A stretch of 64,000 nt of DNA from Candidatus Denitrolinea symbiosum (GCA_017312345.1 BLAA01000001.1:558001-622000), one strand, 5' to 3'; shown: positions 28,896-44,536, counted from the stretch's first letter. Translations and numbers: made by a program. The notes: a model not told the origin generated them from the sequence alone.

Positions 28896-29570
28896 TTATT
28901 TCACAAAGATCGTGTTGGGAAAACCGAGCGCGGCGAAGAAGCGCAGCAGGTAGGCCTCGGCATTGATCTGCGCCTGTGTGAGAATGCCGTCTTCCATCGC
29001 GGCTTTGAGAATCTCCTGCTCGGCAGTCTGGCGCGCCAGCGTTTCGAGATCGTTGACGCCTTTGGTGAAAATTCCCGTGTTGCGGTCGTAAACGTAGGAT
29101 TTCTCGTTGTTGAGCGTGGCGACGAATACTTCCGCAGACGGCAGGGTCACATATAGCACGCCGCCGTCGTAGCGCATGTGCTGGGGCTCGATCTTGTTCA
29201 TGTCGATGCCCGCGATAACGAGGCCGTGCGCGACGAAGAGCAGTTTGTCGCCGAAGAGGAAGTCGAGGGAGCCTTGTCCGCTTTCCGCGGTGATGACTTT
29301 CTCCACGCTGTATTGGATCGTCTCCAGACGCGCCAGCGCGCGGATCTCGGTGATGTACGTTACCGGGTCGGGGATGATCGTGGGCGTGGGATTCATCAAT
29401 TGCGCCACCTGCGTCTGCATGGACTGGTTGGCCTGCGCCAGGGGCTGGAGCGCGGAGTTGGCGTTGGCCGCGGTCTGATGTACCGCGTCGCGCACGGTGG
29501 TGACGATAAAGTAGATGCCCGCCGCCAGCACGATCAGGAAAATTAGGTTGAACCATCCGTTGTTCTTCAT
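28896..29570 (-). CDS. DUF4230 membrane-anchored protein
   Basis: 224 aa: an N-terminal membrane helix (MKNNGWFNLIFLIVLAAGIY) then a DUF4230 domain. Typical parts are LARLETIQYSVEKVITAE, GDKLLFVAHGLVIAGIDMNK, VTLPSAEVFVATLNNEKSYV, and the C-terminal helical AEQEILKAAMEDGILTQAQ. The start at 29570 was chosen because a TATAAT box ends 7 nt before it (leaderless). A longer in-frame reading to 29816 would run through the promoter and a repeat element. Function unknown. Confidence 0.87.
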   Translation of the reverse strand: MKNNGWFNLIFLIVLAAGIYFIVTTVRDAVHQTAANANSALQPLAQANQSMQTQVAQLMNPTPTIIPDPVTYITEIRALARLETIQYSVEKVITAESGQGSLDFLFGDKLLFVAHGLVIAGIDMNKIEPQHMRYDGGVLYVTLPSAEVFVATLNNEKSYVYDRNTGIFTKGVNDLETLARQTAEQEILKAAMEDGILTQAQINAEAYLLRFFAALGFPNTIFVK

Positions 29571-29626
29571 GCGCGGTATTATAAACCACGAGGGGACAAG
29601 GGAAAAGGATTTTTCCGCCCTGGGTT

Positions 29627-29797
29627 GGCGCGTTTTATGGCCGTAGCAAAGTCGCTTGACAAGTTGGCCGATATGAAACGCGAATAGCGCGAATGGGCGA
29701 ATTTCGCGAATTTTCTTAGGCTTTTTCGCGTCATTCGCAAATTCGCGGCATTCGCGATGAAAATCCTCAGACTTTGCTACAGCCATGGGCGCGTTTT
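29627..29797. mobile_element. MITE-like element with terminal inverted repeats and direct repeats
   Basis: Inverted ends ATGGCCGTAGCAAAGTC (29637-29653) and GACTTTGCTACAGCCAT (29770-29786) match at 16 of 17 positions. The element is about 150 bp and has no ORF. It is flanked by a perfect 10-bp direct repeat GGCGCGTTTT (29627-29636, 29788-29797), as expected for a target-site duplication. The interior is itself partly palindromic (GCGAAT/ATTCGC words). Lies between DUF4230 and the response regulator. Confidence 0.78.
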
Positions 29798-29864
29798 CCC
29801 CGCCCTTGTCAGACATTCCGCCCTCGACTAAAATCCTAGCCTAACCAGAGGAAGTAGAGAAGCA

Positions 29865-32452: not shown

Positions 32453-32514
32453 CAATGTAATTTTCCGCCTCATTTCGCCGCTCTTCCTTAAAAGAATTGT
32501 GCTATACTTTTGCC

Positions 32515-32754
32515 ATGCAAACGCCGCGACCGAACTGGACCCTCTGGGCAGAGCAACTCCATCGTTGGCGACTCGACGTCCTCGCCGCCTGGGCGCTCGA
32601 AGCGGGCGCGCCTCTCGCGCTGCTGGGCGCGCAGGCGTTTTTTTTCGCCCGTCCCTTTTTGGGCGCGCAGAGCGAAGCCATCGCGAACATGCTCGAAGAT
32701 GAAAACGAGACGCGCGCCTTTGCCGCGTATTTGCGAGGGGAGGCTTTGGCATGA
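32515..32754 (+). CDS. 79-aa protein, first gene of the DUF6754/GlmL operon
   Basis: Small protein MQTPRPNWTLWAEQLHRWRL..., with a hydrophobic stretch in the middle (LAAWALEAGAPLALLGAQAF) and an acidic end (NMLEDENETRAFAAYLRG). The -10 box TATACT (32503-32508) ends 6 nt before the ATG and no ribosome site is present, so it is leaderless and marks the operon promoter. Its stop overlaps the next ATG (ATGA). Unknown family. Confidence 0.75.
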   Translation: MQTPRPNWTLWAEQLHRWRLDVLAAWALEAGAPLALLGAQAFFFARPFLGAQSEAIANMLEDENETRAFAAYLRGEALA

Positions 32755-33491
32755 ACGAATTGATCGCCCTCGGCCTGACCATCTTCGCGGCCGTCCTCCT
32801 TTTAGCCCTGACCTTCATTAAACGAAAATCGCCGCCCGTCTTCCGCGAGATCGCGGCCTTCACGCGATTGCGGCGGGCGGCGGGAATGTCCGTTGAAGAC
32901 GGGACCCGCCTCCACGTCTCGCTGGGACGCGGCGGGTTGATCTCGCCGCGCGGCGCGGCCTCGTTGTCGTCGCTGGCGTTGCTGCGTCAACTCGGCGAGC
33001 AGACCTCCATCAGCGACCGTCCGCCCGTCGCCACCTCCGGCGACCCGGTGGTGGCCGCGCTTTCACAGGATACTTTGCAGGCCGCCTACCAGGCCGCGGG
33101 CGCGGAGGAGTCCTTCCAACCCGACAGCGGACGCCTCGGCGGTCTGACGCCCTTCTCGTACGCGGCCGGCGCGATGACCGTCGCGCGCCAGGAGCAGGTC
33201 TCCACGAACGCGGCGGTCGGCGATTTCGGCGCGGAGGTCGGCCTGCTGGCCGAGGCCTCCGAGCGCGAGAACGCCGCCCTCATCGCCGCCGCCGTGGACC
33301 CGGCCGCGCAAGCCATCCTGTTCGCGTCCGCGTCCGAGCCGCTGGTGGGCGAGGAGTTGTTCGCCGCGCCCGCCTACGTCGGGAACGACGCGGCCCAGCG
33401 CGCCAGTTTGCGGGTGCAGGACGTCTTGCGCTGGCTGGTCATCCTGGCTCTGCTGGCCGCGGCCGCTTTGAAAATGACGGGACTGCCATGA
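32751..33491 (+). CDS. DUF6754-like membrane protein
   Basis: 246 aa with a helix at each end (about 5-23 and 226-244) and a central soluble domain resembling DUF6754. Recognisable parts: LHVSLGRGGLISPRGAASLS, SFAYAAG-type FSYAAGAMTVARQEQVSTN, FGAEVGLLAEASERENAALI, and FASASEPLVGEELFAAPAYV. The family has no known function. ATGA overlaps join it to both neighbours, so it is translated as part of a fixed gene set. Confidence 0.8.
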   Translation: MNELIALGLTIFAAVLLLALTFIKRKSPPVFREIAAFTRLRRAAGMSVEDGTRLHVSLGRGGLISPRGAASLSSLALLRQLGEQTSISDRPPVATSGDPVVAALSQDTLQAAYQAAGAEESFQPDSGRLGGLTPFSYAAGAMTVARQEQVSTNAAVGDFGAEVGLLAEASERENAALIAAAVDPAAQAILFASASEPLVGEELFAAPAYVGNDAAQRASLRVQDVLRWLVILALLAAAALKMTGLP

Positions 33492-34114
33492 AACCTCGCC
33501 CTGTAGCCGCGGCCATCGCCATTTCGGTCGGCATCATTATCCTGCTGGGCTATTTCCTGCCGATCCCGCTCCTCGTCCCGGTTCGGATCGAACTGCTGCA
33601 TTGGGCGGTGATTTTGGCGGGCGTGGCCGTTCTGGTGGGGGTGGGAAATCTCTTCAGCGTTCATTTTCAGAAATTGCGCCGCCGCGAAAAGGGATCGGTC
33701 TACAGCCTGACTTTGCTCGTGGCGATGCTGGCGACGCTGCTGGTCGGCGTATTGACGGGCCCGGATCATCCGTGGATGCAGGCCGTTGTGACGGCCATCA
33801 TCATCCCGGCGGAGGCCTCGTTGATGGCGCTGCTCGCGGTGACGCTGCTCTACGCCTCCATCCGCCTGCTCCGCCGCCGCGCCGACACGATGACCATCGT
33901 CTTTTTGGGAAGCGCCATCCTGATGCTGGCTGCTTCGATCTCCCTGCCCCTGCTGGGCGAGATCCCCATCCTGGGCGACTGGGTGCGTCCCTGGCTGATC
34001 TATACCCCGGTCGCGGGCGGCGCGCGCGGACTTTTGCTGGGCGTGGCGCTCGGAGCGCTGGTCACCGGCTTGCGCGCGCTCTTCGCCCTTGACCGTCCCT
34101 ACGGGGGAAAATAA
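33488..34114 (+). CDS. Multi-pass membrane protein of the DUF6754/GlmL operon
   Basis: 208 aa with about six helices (for example AAIAISVGIIILLGYFLPI, YSLTLLVAMLATLLVGVLTG, ASLMALLAVTLLYASIRLL). A cluster of basic residues lies after helix 2 (KLRRREKGS) and helix 4 (RRRADT). No catalytic motif. Overlaps the previous gene by ATGA and the next by TAATG. Confidence 0.82.
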   Translation: MKPRPVAAAIAISVGIIILLGYFLPIPLLVPVRIELLHWAVILAGVAVLVGVGNLFSVHFQKLRRREKGSVYSLTLLVAMLATLLVGVLTGPDHPWMQAVVTAIIIPAEASLMALLAVTLLYASIRLLRRRADTMTIVFLGSAILMLAASISLPLLGEIPILGDWVRPWLIYTPVAGGARGLLLGVALGALVTGLRALFALDRPYGGK

Positions 34115-36318
34115 TGGCCGACCAATTCTGTCCCAACTGCGGCATGCCCAACGCGGAAGAGCAGGAAGTCTGCTCGTTCTGCCAGCAGTCGCTGCGCGTG
34201 GACGCGGGCGCGGCAAGCATCCGTCCCGGCGAGACGCCCACCCGAAAGACCACCGCCGAACTGGAACCCATCCTGCCGGCCTGGCTGCGCGACGCCCGCG
34301 AGACCGCCCGCCGCGCCGACGCCGAGACCGCCGCAGAGGAGGCCCAGGCCGCCGCCGAAAACCCCGCGCCGAAGGAGGAAGTCCCCGACTTTTTAGCCGG
34401 GCTGGCCTCGGCCGCGCGCGACGACCAGGACGACGAACTCCCCGAATGGATGCGCGGCGCCGCGCCCTCTTCTGCCCCCGCGAAACCCGACAAGGAAGAG
34501 CAGGCCTTCCCGCGCCGCTCCGAAATCCGCTGGGGAGACGATCAATCGGACGAACTCGGCGGCATGGCGACCACGCCCGTCACGCCCGCGCCGGAAAGCG
34601 GCGACGCCCTGCTCCCCTGGATGCAGGCTCGCGACGGAGCCGCCTCCGACTCCGCCGGCCGCGAACCCTCGCAGCCGGTCACGCCGTTTTCGAACGGCGC
34701 CGTCGAACCTCCCCACACCGGCGAATTGACCGACTGGCTCGAACAGGCCGCCGCCCAACCTGCCGCGCCGGCCGAACCGTCCGCGCCCGCCTCGGAGGAA
34801 TCGCTCGACGACTGGCTCTCGAAGTTGCCGCGCGATGTGGAGATTCCCGCCGCCAGCGAGTCCCCTGCGTCTTTCGACGAGACGATAGACCTCCCCGACT
34901 GGATGAAACCCGCCGCGACGGAGGAAGTCTCCGCCGCGGACGCCGAACTTCCCGACTGGATGGCTTCCTTCCGTGAACAGAAGCCGTTCGCGCCGCCTGA
35001 GGTCTCTCCTCCCGAATCCGCCGAACAACCGCCAGCCGCCCCGGCCTTCGTCCCCGAAGCGGAACCGGCCGCCGAAACCCCAGCGAACGACCTGTTCTCC
35101 ATCGAAATGCCCGACTGGCTTTCGAACATCGCGCCCGTCGAAACTGAAGCGCCCGCGGCGGACGAATCCGCTCCCGACCAGCCCATCGCCCCGGCCGAAC
35201 TGCCCTCGTGGGTGCAGGCCATGCGCCCGGTCGAGACCGTCCTGCCCGACGCGCCGTCGGCGCAGGCCGCGGTCGAAGGTCCGCTGGAAGAGGCGGGGCC
35301 GCTGGCCGGACTGCGCGGCGTTCTGCCCTTCGTCGGCGGGATCGTCCAACCCGGCAAGCCGGTGGGACAGTCGTTCCGCCTCCAAGCCAGCCAGTCCCAG
35401 CAGGAGGACGCGTCCCTGCTCGGGCAATTGATCGCCGCCGAGACGCAGCCCAAGCCGCTGCGCGGCGCGAGACTCTTCCGTTCGCAGCGCGTCCTGCGCT
35501 GGGTCCTTTCGGCCCTGCTCATCTTGCTGGCAAGCGCCGCCATCCTTGGCCGCACGCAGGCCGTGCCGCTGCCCGCGGCGCTTTCGCCTGAGAGCGCGCT
35601 GGCGCTGCCCATTCTGGAATCCCTGCCGAACGACGCGCCGATTTTGATGATCTTCGACTACGACCCCGCGCTATCCGGGGAACTCGAAGCCGCCGCCGCG
35701 TCCTTCGTGGACCGTCTGCTGGGTCTGCGTTCCCCGCGCGTGACCGTCCTTTCGACCTCTCCCATCGGCCCGGCGCTGGCCGAGCGTTTCTTTGCCGCGA
35801 GCGTCGCGAGACAAAACTACCGTCCCGGACAGGACTACGTCAACCTGGGCTACCTGCCCGGCGGCGAGACCGGCATCCTGTCGTTCGCCGTCAACCCGCG
35901 CGCCGCGCTCCCCTCGCGCTCCTGGGACGCGCCCGCCGCGCAGGGCGTATCCCGCTTCTCGGACTACGCCGCGGTCGTCCTGCTCACCGACCAGGCCGAG
36001 ACCGCCCGCGCCTGGGTGGAGCAGACCGCCGCCCACCGCGCGGGACATCCCCTGATCGTCGTCGCCAGCGCGCAGGCCGCGCCCATGATCCAGCCCTACC
36101 TGCTTTCGAGACAGGTCAGCGCCCTCGTGAGCGGATTGCGCGACGGCGCGGCCTTCGAAGCCTCCAGCGAGACGGGCGGCCCCGTCCGCAAATATTGGGA
36201 CGCGTACAACTTCACGCTCACGCTCGCCGTCCTGCTCATGGCATTCGGCGGCTTGTGGAATCTCATTGCCGGCGCGCGCTCGCGCCGAGTTTCGGACGAG
36301 GCCCGACATGAATCCTGA
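34114..36318 (+). CDS. Zinc-ribbon protein with repeated PxW motifs and a membrane anchor
   Basis: 734 aa. Residues 1-30 form a zinc ribbon (CPNCGMPNAEEQEVCSFC). Residues about 40-400 are disordered, acidic and Ala/Pro-rich, and hold about ten copies of a short Trp motif: LPAWL, LPEWM, LLPWM, LTDWL, LDDWL, LPDWM (twice), MPDWL, LPSWV and a Phe version VPDFL. A membrane helix follows (WVLSALLILLASAAILG, about 470-490). Then comes an extracytoplasmic alpha/beta domain and a final helix (LTLAVLLMAFGGLWNLIAG). It looks like a scaffold joining cytoplasmic partners to the membrane. No enzyme motif seen. Confidence 0.82.
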   Translation: MADQFCPNCGMPNAEEQEVCSFCQQSLRVDAGAASIRPGETPTRKTTAELEPILPAWLRDARETARRADAETAAEEAQAAAENPAPKEEVPDFLAGLASAARDDQDDELPEWMRGAAPSSAPAKPDKEEQAFPRRSEIRWGDDQSDELGGMATTPVTPAPESGDALLPWMQARDGAASDSAGREPSQPVTPFSNGAVEPPHTGELTDWLEQAAAQPAAPAEPSAPASEESLDDWLSKLPRDVEIPAASESPASFDETIDLPDWMKPAATEEVSAADAELPDWMASFREQKPFAPPEVSPPESAEQPPAAPAFVPEAEPAAETPANDLFSIEMPDWLSNIAPVETEAPAADESAPDQPIAPAELPSWVQAMRPVETVLPDAPSAQAAVEGPLEEAGPLAGLRGVLPFVGGIVQPGKPVGQSFRLQASQSQQEDASLLGQLIAAETQPKPLRGARLFRSQRVLRWVLSALLILLASAAILGRTQAVPLPAALSPESALALPILESLPNDAPILMIFDYDPALSGELEAAAASFVDRLLGLRSPRVTVLSTSPIGPALAERFFAASVARQNYRPGQDYVNLGYLPGGETGILSFAVNPRAALPSRSWDAPAAQGVSRFSDYAAVVLLTDQAETARAWVEQTAAHRAGHPLIVVASAQAAPMIQPYLLSRQVSALVSGLRDGAAFEASSETGGPVRKYWDAYNFTLTLAVLLMAFGGLWNLIAGARSRRVSDEARHES

Positions 36319-36979
36319 ACTCATCTCCGGCATCGTCGGTTTCATCCTCACGCTGATGATCTTAAGTTACCTCGTCGGCGATAACGCCCTCTTCCGCTTC
36401 GCCGTGCATGTCTTCGTCGGCGTCTCGGCGGGATATGTGGCCGTGATCGCGCTTTACCAGGTCGTCATCCCCTACCTGGTTGCCCCGCTGATGAGCGCGC
36501 CCATGCTGGAACGCGGCCTCCTGCTGATCCCCCTGATTTTGAGCGTGTTGATGCTGATGAAGATCTCGCCGCGTCTCGGTCGTCTGGGCGGACCGGCCGT
36601 CGGCTACCTCGTCGGCGCGGGGACGGCGGTGGCGGTCGGCGGAGCCGTACTGGGGACGATCCTCCCGCAGGTCGGCGCGGCCGCCGAACCGTTCAATATC
36701 GCCGCCCTGATCCAGCGCGGCGTCAACCCGATCGAGTCGCTGTTGAACGGCGCGGTCATGCTGGTCGGCGCGGTCGCCACGCTGGCCTATTTCCACTTTG
36801 GCGCGCGCCGCGCCGAAGACGGTTCCGTCAAACGCGGCTTCCTGTTCGAAGCCTTCGCCTGGCTCGGGAAGTTGTTCGTGGCCCTCACGCTCGGCGCGCT
36901 GTTCGCGGGCGTCTATAGCGCCGCGCTGTCCGCGCTGGTGGAACGCGTTCATTCCCTGTTCTCCATTTTTGGATTCTGA
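36308..36979 (+). CDS. Second multi-pass membrane protein of the operon
   Basis: 223 aa with about six helices (ISGIVGFILTLMILSYLVG, VFVGVSAGYVAVIALYQVV, LLLIPLILSVLMLMKIS and others). The MKISPRLGRLGGPAVGYLVG segment is conserved-looking. Start at 36308 overlaps the preceding stop by 11 nt; an upstream in-frame ATG exists but would overlap more. The next gene follows after 2 nt. Function unknown. Confidence 0.82.
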   Translation: MNPELISGIVGFILTLMILSYLVGDNALFRFAVHVFVGVSAGYVAVIALYQVVIPYLVAPLMSAPMLERGLLLIPLILSVLMLMKISPRLGRLGGPAVGYLVGAGTAVAVGGAVLGTILPQVGAAAEPFNIAALIQRGVNPIESLLNGAVMLVGAVATLAYFHFGARRAEDGSVKRGFLFEAFAWLGKLFVALTLGALFAGVYSAALSALVERVHSLFSIFGF

Positions 36980-36981
36980 TT

Positions 36982-38727
36982 ATGCCGATCTCATTGACGG
37001 ACGACCATTCCCTGCTGGCTGTGGACGTTGGCGCCACGACCACGCGGGCCGCGCTTTTCGACGTGGTGGAGGGCGGCTACCGCTTCCTCGCGGTGGGACA
37101 GGCCCCCAGCACAGCCGAAGCGCCCTTCAAAGACATCGGCCTCGGCGTGCGCGCCGCCATCGAAAACATCCAGTCCATCACGGGGCGGACTTTTCTCGAC
37201 GCGGACCGCAAATTGATCTCGCCGTCCCGCGCCGACGGTTCGGGCGTGGACCTGTTCACGGCCACGCTTTCGGCCGGGCCGTCCATCCGAACCGTCATCG
37301 TCGGTCTGCTCGCCGACGTCTCGCTCGAATCGGCCCGCCGCCTCGCGGAGACCGCCTACGGCCGCGTCGTCGAAAGTCTCAGCCTGGCAGACCGCCGCCG
37401 CCCCGACGAGCAGATAGACGCCATCCTGCGCGCCCGCCCGGACCTGATCGTGCTGGCCGGCGGGACGGACGGCGGCGCGTCGCGCTCCGTCCACATGATG
37501 CTCGACACAGCGGGACTGGCCTGCTACCTCATGCCAAAAGAGAAACGTCCCGCCATTTTATTCGCCGGAAACAACAGCCTCGCCGACGACGTGAAGCGGC
37601 TGCTGGAAAGCCTGACGCCCGCCCTGCACTTCAGCCCGAACCTGCGTCCCTCGCTGGACGTGGAAGACCTCGACCCGGCCATGAGCGAGCTCTCGCAAAT
37701 CGTCACCGGCATCCGCCGCGGACAGTTGCGCGGCGTGGACGAACTGGAGGCCTGGTCGAACGGACACGTCTTCCCCACAGCCTACGCCACCGGGCGTATG
37801 ACGCGCTTCCTCAGCCGCCTGACCGGCGCTTCCGGCGGCGTGTTGAGCGTAACCCTCGGCGCCTCCGCCGCGAGCGTGGCCGCGGGCTTCAACGGCGACC
37901 TGTGCCTGCGCGTGTACCCGCAATACGGACTGGGCGAAAACCTGGCCGCCCTCGCCCAAAACACGGACCTGGACGAACTCATCCGCTGGCTCTCGCTGGA
38001 CATCCACCAAAACAGCGTGCGCGACGCCATCTATCAACGCTCGCTGTATCCGTCCACCGTGCCGGCCACGCCCGAGGAACGCGCCATCTCGCAGGCGTTG
38101 GCGCGTCACACCCTGCATTTAGCCGTGCGCGCCGCCCAGCGCGACTTCCCGCCCGCGGCGCGGTCCGACCTCCTGCCGGCCTTTGAATTCATCTTCGCCA
38201 GCGGCGCGGCCCTCACCGACGGCGCTACGCCCGGCCAGAACCTGCTCCTGCTCTTAGACGCCCTCCAGCCGACGGGCGTCACCCAGGCGATGCTCGACCG
38301 CAACAACCTCCTGCCCCTGCTGGGCGCGGCCGCCGATTTGAATCAACTCCTGCCGGTGCAGGCGTTGGAATCCGGCGCGTTCCTGAACCTCGGCACGACG
38401 GTTTCGGTCGTCAGCGCCGCCTCGCACGGCGCTCCGGTCCTGCGGGCGCGCCTGAGATACGCCGATCGCAACGAAGCCAACATCGAAGTCAAGCGCGGCG
38501 CTTTGGAATTGCTCCCGCTTGGGGCCGGGGAGGCGGCCAAACTCACCCTGCAGCCGCTCCACCGCGCCGACGTGGGATTCGGCCCCGGCCGCGGCCAGAC
38601 CATCACCGTCCACGGAGGCGCGCTGGGACTGGTCATCGACGCGCGCGGCCGCCCGCTGCAATTGCCGTCCGACGCGGTGCGCCGCCGCGAGCTCTTCAAA
38701 AAATGGCTGTGGACGCTGGGAGGCTAA
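36982..38727 (+). CDS. GlmL-like (glutamate mutase L family) ASKHA ATPase
   Basis: 581 aa. The phosphate-1 loop LLAVDVGATTTRAALFDVV and the later VLAGGTDGGASRSVHMML and FAGNNSLADDVKRLLE blocks match the glutamate mutase MutL/GlmL family, an ASKHA-fold group distinct from mismatch-repair MutL. In clostridia the protein neighbours the B12 mutase GlmES, but no mutase subunits are here; instead it lies inside a membrane-protein operon. I infer it acts as the ATPase or switch of that complex. It is followed after 2 nt by the next gene with GGGAGG in its end. Confidence 0.85.
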   Translation: MPISLTDDHSLLAVDVGATTTRAALFDVVEGGYRFLAVGQAPSTAEAPFKDIGLGVRAAIENIQSITGRTFLDADRKLISPSRADGSGVDLFTATLSAGPSIRTVIVGLLADVSLESARRLAETAYGRVVESLSLADRRRPDEQIDAILRARPDLIVLAGGTDGGASRSVHMMLDTAGLACYLMPKEKRPAILFAGNNSLADDVKRLLESLTPALHFSPNLRPSLDVEDLDPAMSELSQIVTGIRRGQLRGVDELEAWSNGHVFPTAYATGRMTRFLSRLTGASGGVLSVTLGASAASVAAGFNGDLCLRVYPQYGLGENLAALAQNTDLDELIRWLSLDIHQNSVRDAIYQRSLYPSTVPATPEERAISQALARHTLHLAVRAAQRDFPPAARSDLLPAFEFIFASGAALTDGATPGQNLLLLLDALQPTGVTQAMLDRNNLLPLLGAAADLNQLLPVQALESGAFLNLGTTVSVVSAASHGAPVLRARLRYADRNEANIEVKRGALELLPLGAGEAAKLTLQPLHRADVGFGPGRGQTITVHGGALGLVIDARGRPLQLPSDAVRRRELFKKWLWTLGG

Positions 38728-38729
38728 CC

Positions 38730-39785
38730 ATGCTTGCGCCGGTCACACACATTCTTGCGCTAACCGCCATCCAACGGGAACGTCTCCTGCCCGTGCCGGG
38801 CGTCGTCAACGCGCGGATCAACCAGCGCGTCTCGGCCAGCGACGTGGTGGCCGAAGCCCACTGGGCGCGCGAACACGTTTTGATCGACGTGGCGCGCAAA
38901 CTGGGCGTCGCGTCCGCCGTGGCCGACCGCCTGATCCGCTGCGCGGAGGGCGACCAGGTGGTCGCCAACGCGCTGATCGCCAGCGGGAAAGGCGTGTTCC
39001 CGCGCGAAGTCCGCGCCCCGCGCGATGGCCGCGTGGCCGTGGTGGGCGGGGGCCGCGTCCTGCTCGAAGTCGGCGAGGTGAACGTGGAACTGCGCGCCGG
39101 GCTGCCGGGCCAGGTGACGCAGATAGTCCCCGACCGCGGCGTTGTCATCCAGACCGCCGGGGCGCTCGTCCAGGGCGTCTGGGGCAACGGGCGCATCGAC
39201 GCCGGCCAGTTGATCAACCTGATGGAGAAACCCGATTCCGAATTCGACGCCGGGCGGCTGGACGTGAGCCTGCGCGGGTTCGTCATCCTCGGCGGGGCGG
39301 CCGGCAAAGCCGAGGCGCTGCGGGCCGCGGCCGAACTGCCCGTGCGCGGACTCATCCTCTCCAGCCTGCATCCCGCGCTCATCCCGACGGCGCTGCAAAT
39401 GCGCTATCCTATTTTGGTGATGGACGGCTTCGGCAAACTGCCGATGAACTCCGCCGCCTACCGCCTGTTAAGCACCAACGTCAACCGCGAGGCCACCGTC
39501 AACGCCGAGACGTTCGACCGCTATAGCGGCGCGCGCCCCGAGGCGATCATCCCCCTGCCGGTGGCATCGGAACCCGCGCCGCCTCTGGATGTGGAGGAGT
39601 TTGCCGCCGGCCAGCAGGCGCGCCTGCGCGCCGCGCCGCATTACGGAGCGATCGCCTCCATCGTCCGCCTGCTGCCCGGGCTGACGACCCTGCCGAGCGG
39701 ATTGCGCGCGCCCGCCGCGGAAGTCCGCCTCGAAGCGGGCGGCGAGACCATTGTCCCTCTGGCAAATTTGGAAGTTGTGGGATAA
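38730..39785 (+). CDS. Operon protein with a barrel-sandwich-like segment
   Basis: 351 aa, soluble. A central segment (about residues 85-160) reads VRAPRDGRVAVVGGGRVLLE, then QVTQIVPDRGVVIQTAGALV, like the barrel-sandwich hybrid folds of RnfC or lipoyl-type domains. A following Rossmann-like part has FVILGGAAGKAEALRAAAEL and YPILVMDGFGKLPMNSAAYR. A KOW-like beta stretch ends it. Start at 38730 follows GGGAGG by 6 nt; an in-frame ATG at 38703 would sit inside the GlmL-like gene. Last gene of the compact operon. Function unknown. Confidence 0.8.
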   Translation: MLAPVTHILALTAIQRERLLPVPGVVNARINQRVSASDVVAEAHWAREHVLIDVARKLGVASAVADRLIRCAEGDQVVANALIASGKGVFPREVRAPRDGRVAVVGGGRVLLEVGEVNVELRAGLPGQVTQIVPDRGVVIQTAGALVQGVWGNGRIDAGQLINLMEKPDSEFDAGRLDVSLRGFVILGGAAGKAEALRAAAELPVRGLILSSLHPALIPTALQMRYPILVMDGFGKLPMNSAAYRLLSTNVNREATVNAETFDRYSGARPEAIIPLPVASEPAPPLDVEEFAAGQQARLRAAPHYGAIASIVRLLPGLTTLPSGLRAPAAEVRLEAGGETIVPLANLEVVG

Positions 39786-39835: not shown

Positions 39836-40387
39836 ATGTATGAAGGCGACGACCTGGACACCCTGGAAGACGAAAATCCCCCGGAAGAATCGGGGAACCG
39901 CGCCTTCCTGATTGTGGCCGCGATCTTAGGCGGGATTGTCTTTCTGTCCATTGCATGTCTGGCTGTGTATGGCCTGTATGTGTTGCCGCGCCAAAAACAG
40001 GCGGCCGTAAACCAGCAAAACACGCTGGTGGCGCAGAACTTGCAAGTGAACGAGGCCTTGACGCAAAAAGCCGTCTCGGACGCGCTTTCTCAAACGCCGG
40101 CCGCCACCGCGACCCTCGAACCGACCGCCACGCCTCTCATCCCGCCGTCCACGACCACCCCTGAAGCCGCCACCGACACGCCCGACCCGCAAACGGCCAC
40201 CGTCGCCGCGGCGTTGACCCAGGCCGCGCAAGCCCAATTGACGGTGACCGCCATGCCGACTACCACGCAGCTGCCCAACACCGGCTTCTTCGACGACGCC
40301 GGCGCGCCGGGACTCTTTGTGATGGCGCTGGCGCTGGTCGTCGTCATTCTGCTGGCGCGCAGGCTGCGGACTTCGCCGACCAAATAG
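39836..40387 (+). CDS. Surface protein with LPXTG-type sorting signal
   Basis: 183 aa. N-terminal acidic 20 residues, a membrane helix at about 23-49 (FLIVAAILGGIVFLSIACLA), then a Thr/Ala/Pro-rich linker. A C-terminal sorting signal follows: LPNTG at 146-150, a hydrophobic helix (LFVMALALVVVILLA) and the positive tail RRLRTSPTK. AGAGGAG precedes the ATG. It lies 50 nt after the GlmL-type operon and may share its transcript, ending at a very strong terminator. The acidic N-terminus before the first helix is unusual for a sortase substrate. Confidence 0.8.
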   Translation: MYEGDDLDTLEDENPPEESGNRAFLIVAAILGGIVFLSIACLAVYGLYVLPRQKQAAVNQQNTLVAQNLQVNEALTQKAVSDALSQTPAATATLEPTATPLIPPSTTTPEAATDTPDPQTATVAAALTQAAQAQLTVTAMPTTTQLPNTGFFDDAGAPGLFVMALALVVVILLARRLRTSPTK

Positions 40388-40450: not shown

Positions 40451-41188
40451 TCATTCAATGTTTGGAGTTTCATCGGAATTTATTTTGTAGATGCCGCCCG
40501 GCTCGGCAATTTTTCGCGAACCATCGGGGGATGGAGGAAAAACGATCTTATCAACCAAAAATTTCCCGATTGTGTCGTAATCCAGCATGTATTTTGGAGG
40601 GCGCGGCTTGCCGTTACTATTTCGTCCCTGGTGATGAATGCCAAGAGCAGATCTGTTTTTTGAGGTCACAACCAGAAATAATATTTCGACAAGTTCCGCC
40701 TTCGTTTTTCTGTAACGCGATACGCTGGTTCTTTGTTCGCGATCAATTTCGTATTTTGATTTGCCTCCTTTTAATTTTCCGTGCCATTTTTGAAACGACC
40801 TGTTCATATCGTTGTATTCGACATCGCACAGGGCGATAACAAGTCCGTGCGCGCCATACTGTTTGATGCTCCAATCCATTGCTTCCGAGTCGTTTAGAAT
40901 TGACCGGTGATCATCTGATTTTAGAGCCTTGGCTTTCAAATCCCAATTGATTGTCCCTTTGAAGTCGAAACATGCTGTTTTGACTCTTCCAAATTTGTCG
41001 CCAGGAATTAAAAACGATCCTGCCAATTTCTCAAACGCGATGTACTCAAAATAGAACCCCCACCACTCCATTTGCCGCCAATTGAAATTTGCCGCTTTTA
41101 GTTCCAATACACTTTTTCGCCCGTCCCAAAAGACAGGAAAGTCATTCAGCAGGTTCTTTGCCAATAGAATATCACGTTTCACCGTCAT
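40451..41188 (-). CDS. Putative restriction endonuclease (partner of the m4C methyltransferase)
   Basis: 245 aa, starting MTVKRDILLAKNLLNDFPVF. A possible PD-(D/E)xK core is visible: ELKAANFNW, then FDFKGTINWDLKAKALKSDD (D...KAK pattern). It is called a nuclease mainly because its start lies 9 nt after the stop of a type II-like DNA methyltransferase, and because its A+T content and codon use are foreign to the region. A second methyl-sensitive role is possible. Recognition sequence cannot be inferred. Confidence 0.65.
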   Translation of the reverse strand: MTVKRDILLAKNLLNDFPVFWDGRKSVLELKAANFNWRQMEWWGFYFEYIAFEKLAGSFLIPGDKFGRVKTACFDFKGTINWDLKAKALKSDDHRSILNDSEAMDWSIKQYGAHGLVIALCDVEYNDMNRSFQKWHGKLKGGKSKYEIDREQRTSVSRYRKTKAELVEILFLVVTSKNRSALGIHHQGRNSNGKPRPPKYMLDYDTIGKFLVDKIVFPPSPDGSRKIAEPGGIYKINSDETPNIE

Positions 41189-41197
41189 GTCATCTCC

Positions 41198-42097
41198 TTA
41201 AAACAACTTTTGCTGGGATCGAAACTCACTCTCGATCCGCCTGCGCGCGATCTCACAATATTCGTTGCTAACCTCAATTCCGATATATTTGCGATCGTTG
41301 TTGTGCGCCATGACGCATGTTGTACCGCTACCGCACATGGGATCCAAAACAACATCGCCCGGTTCAGAAAAGCATAAGATCAGATCCTCGGCAAGTTTGT
41401 CTGGAAATGTAGCGGGATGTTGAAGCTTTAACCGATTGCCTTCCGTATTGCTCGTTGAATATTGCCAGACCGTCCCCCGACATTTCATCGGGTTTACTGC
41501 TTTTGGCTCGATCGTTTTGAAACCGCCGTTTGTCAGCCTATCCGTTCCCGAATAGATTTTACCTGCATGTTTACTAGGCACCATAAGGTGTTCTTTATGA
41601 AAAGTCTTGGGGCGATCTCCCTTGAAGAAAATCAAAATATATTCATGATCCACTCGAAAACGCTGATTCCACCATGCGCCCGGGTTGCCATCACGTTTAT
41701 ATATCACGCTTTCAAAAAGTTTCCACCCGGCCTCGTCCACCCAATTGACAGCCAGTCGAAATGACGTGAGCGATTTTGCAAAGTTCTTTGTCCCATCGCC
41801 GATAACCACAATAGCCGCTCCGCCGTCCTTTGTGATCCTGTATAGATGTTTGCCGAGCTTTTCGAAATCAAAAGACCAATTTTTTTTATAATCTCGAATT
41901 CCATCATAGGGCGGGGAAAAAACGATTAGATCTATGACATTATCAGGGAAAGTTGAAAGCAGTTCCAAACAATCGCCATTTAAAATTTGATCCAGGTTTA
42001 ATTTGGCGGCCTGACTGCTGTTTTCACGAGCCGTATCCTGTAATTTTTTTTGTTTGATGGAATATGCAATTTGGGCTTGTTCTTTTACTTTTCTCAT
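41198..42097 (-). CDS. DNA methyltransferase, beta class, N4-cytosine type
   Basis: 299-aa modification enzyme. Catalytic motif IV SPPYDG is at residues 61-66 (the SPPY form favours N4-cytosine). The SAM motif DPMCGSGTTCVMAHNNDR follows near 254, giving the IV-before-I order of the beta class. The region between (NPGAWWNQRFRVDHEYILIF) fits target recognition. A TAAAAT box ends 6 nt before the ATG, so it is probably leaderless. Co-directional nuclease-like gene follows. A+T-rich, so likely transferred as an R-M cassette. Confidence 0.92.
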   Translation of the reverse strand: MRKVKEQAQIAYSIKQKKLQDTARENSSQAAKLNLDQILNGDCLELLSTFPDNVIDLIVFSPPYDGIRDYKKNWSFDFEKLGKHLYRITKDGGAAIVVIGDGTKNFAKSLTSFRLAVNWVDEAGWKLFESVIYKRDGNPGAWWNQRFRVDHEYILIFFKGDRPKTFHKEHLMVPSKHAGKIYSGTDRLTNGGFKTIEPKAVNPMKCRGTVWQYSTSNTEGNRLKLQHPATFPDKLAEDLILCFSEPGDVVLDPMCGSGTTCVMAHNNDRKYIGIEVSNEYCEIARRRIESEFRSQQKLF

Positions 42098-42677: not shown

Positions 42678-43412
42678 CTATATTTTCTCCACCACCCAAA
42701 AATGGGACAGTCCCAGCCCGCGCAGGGGCGTCTTTTCCAAAAACTGCAAAACGCCGCGCAGGAACTTCCCGAACGCGCCGAAGCGCGCGATGATATTGTC
42801 GTACGCGCCGAAGACGACCGTGCGTTCCACGAAACGGACGGGCAGTCCCGTGAACAGTTTCTCCAGGTCGCGGCGCGAATAGACGCGCACGTGCGGCGCG
42901 AGTCTGTCGCGCCAGGCGCGCGGCAGGTAATTCACCAGCGGGATGTTGCCGAACTTGTACCGTCCGCGCCAGTAGATGCCATGCGTCTCAAAAGGATAGC
43001 CCCGGTTCGGACAAAAGATCACGGCCCGCCCGCCGGGATATAACACGCGGATCATCTCGCGCGCCGCCTCGCGGTCGTCCTGCACATGCTCCAGCACCTC
43101 GTGACTCAGGATCAGGTCGAAGGACTCCGACGGAAACGGGAGACGTTCCCCTGCCGCGTTCAGGATGCGCGGCGAACGCGTCCGCGCCTCGGCCGCGCGG
43201 GCGAAGTCGTACTCCAGCCCGAACACCGTCCCGCCGAGCGCCGCGAGCTTCTCCACATACATCCCCACGCCGCAGCCGTTTTCCAGGACGCGCCCGCGGG
43301 CGCGCGCCCCCGCCGCGCGCAGGATCATCGCCAGGCGGCGGTCCTGTCCGGCGCGCCACACATACGAGGGTTCGCCGCGCAGCGCGGCCTTGTCGAAATC
43401 GCGCTCCGTCAT
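42678..43412 (-). CDS. Class I SAM-dependent methyltransferase
   Basis: 244 aa. SAM-binding motif I reads RVLENGCGVGMYVEKLAALG, followed by the acidic post-I region FGLEYDFARA, then SFDLILSHEVLEHVQDDREA typical of Methyltransf_11. Start at 43412 overlaps the M20 stop as ATGA. Last gene of a four-gene operon. The hydrophobic C-terminal third (HIYWRGRYKF region) resembles enzymes acting on lipid-linked or quinone-type substrates; substrate unknown. Confidence 0.9.
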   Translation of the reverse strand: MTERDFDKAALRGEPSYVWRAGQDRRLAMILRAAGARARGRVLENGCGVGMYVEKLAALGGTVFGLEYDFARAAEARTRSPRILNAAGERLPFPSESFDLILSHEVLEHVQDDREAAREMIRVLYPGGRAVIFCPNRGYPFETHGIYWRGRYKFGNIPLVNYLPRAWRDRLAPHVRVYSRRDLEKLFTGLPVRFVERTVVFGAYDNIIARFGAFGKFLRGVLQFLEKTPLRGLGLSHFWVVEKI

Positions 43413-44536
43413 CGTCTCACCGCAAACGCCTTCTCCGCAAAATCGGCCAGCGCGTTCAGTCCCCGCGCCAGCGGCGCCACATCCACAAATTCGGCGGACG
43501 TGTGCGCGCCGCCGCCGGTCGTCACGCCCATCACCAGCGCGGGCAGGCCGCGGCTGATGGGCGCGTTCGCGTCCGTCGAACCGCCGATGAGACTCGCCTC
43601 GATTCCCTGCGCGCGCAGACATTCGACCGCGCATTGGACGAGCGGATGCGACGCGGGGATCTCCCCGCCCGGCCGCCGTCCGATCGACTCCGCCTCCACG
43701 CGGACGCCGGGGCGGTTCGCGGCTTCGACGAGCGCGTCCACGCCCGCGACGAGATTCGCCAGCGCCAGCGTGGATTCGGAGCGCAGGTCCAATTCGAACG
43801 CGGCCTCCGCCGCGATGGTGTTGATCGAAGTCCCGCCGGAGATCGTCCCCACGTTCAGCGTCGTGCGCGGCGAAGTTGACAGGGACAGCGCCGCGATGCG
43901 CGCCGCGAGATTCGCCAGTTCATGCACCGCCGAAGGCTGGCCGTAATCCGACCAGGCGTGCCCGCCCGCCGTCCGCGCGGAGACGCGGTAACGCTGCACC
44001 GCCATCGCACGATGGTAGACGTGTCCCAGCGCCATCCCCTCGACGACGAGGTAGGCCGTCACGCCCGCGCCGAAGCGCTCCACAACAGCCTTCATGCCGC
44101 GCAGGTCGCCGAGACCTTCTTCGCAGGTATTTGCCGCCAGCCAGAGATCGCCCGGCAGGCGGGCGCCGCGCTCGCGTAGTTTCCACACGAGGCCGAGGAG
44201 CGCCGCGACGCCCACCGAGTTGTCGCCGATGCCTGGGCCGTGGATCCGCTCCGGGTCGCGCGTGAGGCGCAGGTCGGTCCCGCGCGGGAACACGGTGTCG
44301 AGGTGCGCGCTGACGACCAGCGGCGGCGCGTCCCCGCCGGGAATCCGCCCGAAGACGTTGCCAGCCGCGTCGGTTCCGACATCCAGCAAACCTTCCGCGA
44401 GGAACCGGGCGCGCACGAATTCCGCGCGCTCGCGTTCGTCGAAGGTCGGCGCGGGGATCTGCTGGATTTGGACAGCCAGTTCGATCACGCGCTCGGTTAT
44501 ATGATTCTGCCGGTCGTTTTCCATAGTTCGTTTCAT
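43409..44536 (-). CDS. M20-family metallopeptidase
   Basis: 375-aa amidohydrolase. Zinc-site motifs: VVSAHLDTVFPRG (His-x-Asp), GPGIGDNSVGVAALLGL (bridging Asp), AANTCEEGLGDLRG (catalytic and metal Glu) and VEGMALGHVYHRA; a later His lies in GGGAHTSAEFVDV. This is closest to the peptidase T/carboxypeptidase G2 subtype. A dimerisation domain lies in the middle (ARTAGGHAWSDYGQPSAVHE). ATGA overlaps on both sides place it in the operon with PfkB and the methyltransferase. Start could also be 12 nt downstream. Confidence 0.92.
   Translation of the reverse strand: MKRTMENDRQNHITERVIELAVQIQQIPAPTFDERERAEFVRARFLAEGLLDVGTDAAGNVFGRIPGGDAPPLVVSAHLDTVFPRGTDLRLTRDPERIHGPGIGDNSVGVAALLGLVWKLRERGARLPGDLWLAANTCEEGLGDLRGMKAVVERFGAGVTAYLVVEGMALGHVYHRAMAVQRYRVSARTAGGHAWSDYGQPSAVHELANLAARIAALSLSTSPRTTLNVGTISGGTSINTIAAEAAFELDLRSESTLALANLVAGVDALVEAANRPGVRVEAESIGRRPGGEIPASHPLVQCAVECLRAQGIEASLIGGSTDANAPISRGLPALVMGVTTGGGAHTSAEFVDVAPLARGLNALADFAEKAFAVRR

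Follow-up and report, generated by a model that had tools for sequence, protein, structure and literature searches.

What is the task of an operon that joins a relative of the accessory ATPase of B12 glutamate mutase to a series of membrane proteins, and has no mutase gene? The operon studied here lies at positions 32515-39785 of a 64,000-nucleotide (nt) stretch from Candidatus Denitrolinea symbiosum (GCA_017312345.1, BLAA01000001.1:558001-622000), and this whole stretch is called the window below. Among its seven open reading frames (ORFs), the DUF6754 protein ORF2, the membrane proteins ORF3 and ORF5 and the C-terminal part of ORF4 (ORF4C) form a recurring set of four, which we call a tetrad, and ORF6 is a MutL/GlmL-like protein of the ASKHA fold (acetate and sugar kinase/Hsp70/actin) with ORF7 as its partner. 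A first-pass annotation had read these genes as one membrane system without a B12 mutase, and conserved order and co-occurrence strongly support this. It had also spoken of an envelope system of unknown task; the membrane system stands, and its task can be sharpened toward solute transport, the direction indicated in other phyla by expanded paralogs and catabolic neighbours. Our best explanation, held tentatively, is that tetrads may be membrane modules, each specific for its substrate, that share an ASKHA ATPase and probably import amino-acid, peptide or amide compounds.

DUF6754 was found in 56 of 251 Chloroflexota genomes, with one match detected in each, and 55 of these 56 also have a MutL match, the homologue of ORF6. 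The association of MutL matches over the cut-off with DUF6754-positive rather than DUF6754-negative Chloroflexota is strong (Fisher p ~4e-25), in a comparison where related genomes are not independent; the genomes compared here are mostly metagenome-assembled. The order ORF1-2-3-4-5-6-7 recurs in many Chloroflexota families. In the GTDB genome scan 403 DUF6754 relatives were found, and the tetrad ORF2-3-4C-5 is kept in Bacillota, Bathyarchaeota, Culexarchaea/Methanomethylicota, one Thermococci metagenome-assembled genome (MAG), WOR-3, Hydrothermota, Latescibacterota, Elusimicrobia, Planctomycetota and others. Of the 89 loci in which the order ORF2-ORF3 could be tested, 83 keep it, and the order ORF6-ORF7 is kept in 54 of 67. 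Beyond Chloroflexota, an ORF6 homologue is present in 30 of 31 DUF6754 genomes and an ORF7 homologue likewise in 30 of 31; the genome that departs from this is an Oligoflexia MAG and is possibly incomplete. An operon order shared by different Chloroflexota families, with a core common to bacteria and archaea, is more than a chance arrangement. The first-pass annotation implied that these genes cluster elsewhere too, and they do so in Chloroflexota, other bacteria and archaea.

Relatives of ORF6 are known from B12 glutamate mutase. ORF6 matches the MutL family (PF13941) over residues 12-461 (E 2.6e-60; 204.9 bits, gathering score 27), but reaches only 94.1 bits against the GlmL equivalog (NF040745; cut-off 475), and DARGRP in its extra C-terminal domain is almost invariant among homologues. 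ORF6 of the window thus has the MutL/GlmL fold with a domain added to it, and falls short of the GlmL equivalog. Membership in Pfam MutL could still suggest a leftover or variant B12-mutase reactivation cluster, an idea to which we give next to no weight, as it is already refuted by co-occurrence unless ORF6 should bind a B12 enzyme. Methylaspartate/glutamate mutase E (PF06368) was found over the cut-off in 4 of 251 Chloroflexota genomes, none of the 4 is in the DUF6754 match list, and none was found in the genome of the window (G000), in agreement with the absence claimed before. One of the four (G176) contains a divergent full operon (L180) missed by the Pfam model and, separately, a canonical GlmL; canonical GlmL copies score 455-567 bits, compared with ~100-270 for ORF6-type proteins, and ORF6 of the window is far under the GlmL cut-off. 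GlmL-like genes are thus not always found with B12 mutase, as the ORF6-type gene does not track mutase genes, and a B12-mutase function was rejected. Separately, a 1264-amino acid (aa) protein at L174:4233-8027 has a B12-binding-like N-terminus apparently fused to a MutL domain, and peptide-transporter-like genes adjoin it.

In some genomes tetrads are highly expanded. The number of DUF6754 matches is 27 in G260 (draft), 14 in G261, 10 in G252 and 7 each in G255, G272 and G279, and the subunits ORF2, ORF3, ORF4 and ORF5 have multiplied together, in full sets. The closed Fermentithermobacillus chromosome (G261) contains 12 complete tetrads and 5 full-length ORF6, and Culexarchaeum (G272) contains 7 DUF6754 with one ORF6 and one ORF7; a few genuine GlmL-type proteins, as well as fragments, are counted among the ORF6 and ORF7 matches. 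Many modules to fewer ATPase modules, by copy number, is the pattern of these two genomes; it was not seen in Chloroflexota. The tetrad paralogs are old, with a mean identity of 31-47% within a genome, and DUF6754 is the most conserved subunit in all expanded genomes (5 of 5; mean identity 0.40-0.47 vs 0.31-0.39). A conserved DUF6754 with variable membrane and outer subunits fits a common cytosolic contact combined with variable substrate parts.

Six loci (L087, L096, L110, L111, L122 and L124) contain two different tetrads in tandem, which suggests heteromeric or paired modules. Between two WOR-3 tetrads lies a 304-aa protein with no family assigned (L111:3385-4299, L124:8664-9578). In Bacillota, a small protein with two transmembrane (TM) helices, a possible PH-like tail and no Pfam family stands ahead of ORF6 (L146:11190-11684, L152:11193-11672, L163:7937-8605, and L145 near 6275), and it is a possible extra subunit.

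Beside the expanded tetrads we found D-aminoacylase-like and hydantoinase-like amidohydrolases, M20 peptidases, creatininases, TldD/PmbA and regulators, as well as tdh-kbl, both over NCBIfam cut-offs. According to a Pfam tally, 75 immediate neighbours include 10 amidohydrolases and 6 M20 peptidases (16 of 75), while in random regions of these genomes 117 genes include 2 of each (4 of 117; Fisher p ~1e-4), the neighbour families having been chosen after the neighbours were viewed. The enrichment is real but moderate. Several neighbours are co-directional with short gaps, for example 3 nt in L229, 6 nt in L240 and 26 nt in L234, and across phyla the clustered neighbours include no single constant partner gene.

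Several observations weigh against the transport reading. The enrichment weakens against 110 genes at least 4 kb off in the same loci, which include 4 amidohydrolases and 4 M20 peptidases (8 of 110; Fisher p 0.005), and adding 5 creatininases to the distal count gives 13 of 110 (p 0.06), so part of the enrichment may reflect hydrolase-rich regions; the family assignments are tallies rather than per-gene review. In Chloroflexota, the window among them, the system is single-copy and no catabolic gene is conserved beside it; some members of the phylum have ORF6-ORF7 and a motif-array protein but no tetrad that could be detected. The ATPase activity of ORF6 is a predicted one, and although the phosphate-1 and adenosine-type motifs are present in the window, Thr replaces the phosphate-2 Asp of most relatives. 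Finally, no transporter fold or family was matched by the tetrad in Pfam, PDB profile and Foldseek searches.

The mechanism that we propose would be a complex of ORF2, ORF3, ORF4C and ORF5 working with ORF6, ORF7 and ORF1. ORF4C would bind or gate the substrate outside, ORF3 and ORF5 could form its path, and the cytosolic DUF6754 domain may couple the tetrad to the shared ORF6/ORF7, which would power or reset it, with ORF6 hydrolysing ATP for this purpose. Solute movement, its direction and the contact surfaces between subunits are putative parts of this scheme, as is the ATP-driven complex with a GlmL-like switch of the first-pass annotation. Transport is read here from genomic context, in which linkage, co-occurrence, modular copy numbers, the paralog divergence pattern and catabolic-neighbour enrichment were observed. 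The further step, a new class of primary transporter in bacteria and archaea whose four-protein DUF6754 modules would be energised by a shared ASKHA-fold ATPase and not by an ABC (ATP-binding cassette) or P-type one, is doubtful.

A single ORF6/ORF7 pair that can serve many tetrads also suits a different arrangement, in which the tetrad would be a membrane-bound enzyme or other machine and ORF6/ORF7 the ATP-dependent assembly or reactivation factor for all tetrads of the cell, by analogy with GlmL and diol-dehydratase reactivases. The closest named relatives of ORF6 are indeed mutase accessory proteins, and ORF6/ORF7 can be found where no tetrad is detectable. We regard this arrangement as rather unlikely, since the tetrad has no known catalytic family or fold, the pathways beside tetrads (e.g. 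tdh-kbl) look complete without a further membrane enzyme, and in Chloroflexota ORF6 is linked to the tetrad on the chromosome, as a general chaperone would not be.

ORF2, which had been called DUF6754-like, is a DUF6754 protein (PF20539; E 7.5e-27; 94.5 bits, gathering score 27). Its structural model has a predicted local distance difference test (pLDDT) score of 93.9, with the Rossmann-like domain at residues ~35-212 between the two helices, and found no significant PDB fold (Foldseek best E 0.011, low TM-scores to assorted Rossmann proteins). The domain is predicted to be cytosolic because of a positive-inside pattern and because DUF6754 proteins of other phyla carry signal-peptide-bearing N-terminal extensions; these extensions also include FN3-like or HEAT segments, of which the FN3 assignment is weakly supported. 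ORF3 and ORF5 are the two multi-pass membrane proteins recognised before. For ORF3, ORF4C and ORF5 there was no reliable Pfam family match, and single-member Pfam membrane matches (TMEM138, Solute_trans_a) were taken as chance. PDB sequence searches with profiles of ORF2, ORF3, ORF4C, ORF5 and ORF6 gave nothing significant, and no ABC family, including an ABC nucleotide-binding domain, was found among ORF1-ORF8 in the Pfam scan. The literature searched contained no paper on DUF6754 or PF20539. ORF1 homologues stand ahead of ORF2 in many Chloroflexota, and ahead of ORF6 in some Bacillota, Elusimicrobia and Bathyarchaeota loci.

ORF4 had been described as a scaffold-like zinc-ribbon protein. The zinc ribbon of the window's copy matches below the Pfam cut-off, while the CxxC...CxxC pattern is present in many relatives; the scaffold-like part gained support from an array of short tryptophan motifs. 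In the disordered region, 9 of 10 Trp fall within a W[LMV] motif, which none of 20000 shuffles reached, and 787 of 879 Trp in the relatives fit the motif. Copies vary from ~3 to >70 between relatives such as L061 and L049, with a maximum of 72. The zinc ribbon and the PxW[L/M] array were gained by ORF4 as a Chloroflexota specialisation; Bacillota and archaea, the groups with the most tetrads, lack the array. Six Chloroflexota loci (L165, L166, L167, L168, L176 and L177) have a zinc-ribbon motif-array protein and homologues of ORF6 and ORF7, and no tetrad was detected; this set may be a cytosolic version of the system. Because in several Chloroflexota of this kind the array protein, a soluble one, stands directly ahead of ORF6-ORF7, the array probably recruits or binds ORF6 or ORF7, and ORF4 looks like a fusion of this putative recruiter to the outer subunit of the tetrad. 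A model of a Bacillota homologue of ORF4C (pLDDT 94.3) has an alpha/beta domain between two TM helices and no Foldseek match at E 0.001 or better (best 0.0013). This domain is predicted to lie outside the membrane because the zinc ribbon precedes the first TM helix of ORF4. The best Foldseek matches of DUF6754 and ORF4C, assorted Rossmann proteins with low TM-scores, were not used.

An expandable multivalent array would also suit an envelope scaffold or receptor, in which ORF4C would sense or organise something outside and the zinc ribbon and array would gather cytosolic partners at the membrane. The single copy in Chloroflexota and the N-terminal extensions of DUF6754 in other phyla agree with such a role, but the lineages richest in tetrads do not have the array, no signalling output domain was found, and a scaffold would not usually expand beside catabolic genes as the tetrads do; we consider this role improbable.

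The barrel-sandwich label given to ORF7 is borne out by family members that match barrel-sandwich and KOW domains: RnfC_N is matched by 6 of 26 ORF7 homologues (best 2.9e-6), and NQRA_N at 0.0027. This resemblance to the barrel-sandwich part of RnfC/NqrA is the ground for supposing an ion- or electron-transfer complex related to Rnf/NQR, which is very improbable. The match is limited to one segment of a protein that ends in KOW, the operon contains no iron-sulphur, flavin or other Rnf/NQR subunit family and no RnfA-G or NqrA-F set, and the neighbours give no sign of respiration. A lysozyme match of ORF7 (5i8l, 1.2e-7 over 26 residues) was discounted, being a match of repeated short glycine-rich motifs.

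The genes of the operon overlap or abut exactly as first annotated. ORF1/ORF2 and ORF2/ORF3 share ATGA overlaps, ORF3/ORF4 are joined by TAATG, ORF4/ORF5 overlap by 11 nt, and 2-nt gaps separate ORF5/ORF6 and ORF6/ORF7 (Table 1). A promoter had been placed at 32503, and the sequence TATACT is found there (32503-32508), preceded by an extended TGC (32500-32502) and followed after 6 nt by the ATG of ORF1. The same box with a 6-nt spacer precedes ORF1 homologues in L035, L037 and L038, and in L033 it lies 10 nt ahead. Since box and spacing recur before the homologous gene in relatives, a leaderless start of the operon transcript is likely; leaderless genes with TAtaaT-type boxes were reported in Chloroflexi (PMC3160421).

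Table 1. Positions of the operon features in the window
Feature	Position	Strand	Remark
Extended -10 box TGC-TATACT	32500..32508	+	sequence; predicted leaderless operon transcript
ORF1, conserved 79-aa protein, predicted helical, no family	32515..32754	+	
ORF2, DUF6754 (PF20539): TM helix, Rossmann-like alpha/beta domain, TM helix	32751..33491	+	profile match
ORF3, multi-pass membrane protein, no Pfam family	33488..34114	+	
ORF4: N-terminal zinc ribbon, disordered region, TM, alpha/beta domain (ORF4C), TM	34114..36318	+	
ORF4 zinc-ribbon segment CPNCG...CSFC	34126..34197	+	Pfam match below cut-off
Nine W[LMV] short motifs, mostly [L/M]PxW[LMV], in disordered part of ORF4	34282..35220	+	
ORF4C, membrane-anchored alpha/beta domain	35497..36318	+	homologue in Bacillota and archaea is a separate protein of ~280 aa, the third of the tetrad
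ORF5, multi-pass membrane protein, no Pfam family	36308..36979	+	
ORF6, MutL/GlmL-like ASKHA ATPase (predicted) with extra C-terminal domain of ~120 aa ending in DARGRP motif	36982..38727	+	
ORF7, barrel-sandwich (RnfC_N/biotinyl-like) segment and C-terminal KOW domain; constant ORF6 partner	38730..39785	+	
ORF8, single-TM protein, LPNTG-like C-terminal anchor	39836..40387	+	Gram_pos_anchor match below cut-off

ORF8 is kept directly downstream of the operon in the nearest families only, and it is a possible accessory. Beside the operon stand an N6_N4 DNA methylase gene (41198-42097) and an uncharacterised gene (40451-41188) that could be the restriction enzyme of this methylase; neither was matched in the flanks of relatives. 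An M20 peptidase of the window (43409-44536) was rejected as a link to transport, as no match was found in the flanks of relatives. Upstream, a DUF4230 protein (28896-29816; 2.8e-30) is unrelated to the operon.

The system is real and widespread, and without a described counterpart in the literature searched. It comprises four co-conserved membrane-linked families in both domains of life, three of which have no Pfam entry, and two tetrad families give high-confidence models without a significant match to a solved fold. If tetrads were transporters powered by an ASKHA ATPase, they would drive transport on a new principle and account for the uptake of amino-acid and amide substrates by several thermophilic Bacillota and archaea that are uncultured. 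The clade whose closed chromosome carries 12 complete tetrads allows substrates to be assigned by direct tests, and the motif array does the same for the recruitment step.

Compared with known systems, ORF6 shares the ASKHA core and the phosphate-1, phosphate-2 (with Thr for Asp in the window's copy) and adenosine-type motifs with the GlmL/MutL accessory proteins of B12 glutamate mutase (PF13941, NF040745), but differs in its DARGRP domain, in failing the equivalog cut-off and in its partners, which are ORF7 and DUF6754 tetrads instead of mutase subunits. PilM/FtsA-type membrane-associated ASKHA proteins work with inner-membrane partners, which is a likeness to ORF6, although sequence family and partners differ and the operon has no pilus or division genes. 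The barrel-sandwich segment of ORF7 is common to RnfC/NqrA, whereas its KOW C-terminus is not and the remaining Rnf/NQR subunits are missing from the operon. ABC, TRAP (tripartite ATP-independent periplasmic) and other multi-subunit importers also have an outer domain, two multi-pass proteins, a cytosolic coupling part and operons with catabolic genes; here, however, there is no ABC domain or known permease family, and both soluble domains are membrane-anchored and without a significant fold match. In group II energy-coupling factor (ECF) transporters, one shared EcfAA'T ATP module serves several S-components (PMC7755397). While no ABC ATPase or S-component was found in our system, which has an ASKHA-fold ATPase and membrane subunits without a Pfam family, its copy numbers, as an analogy only, likewise combine many specific modules with few ATP modules that they share.
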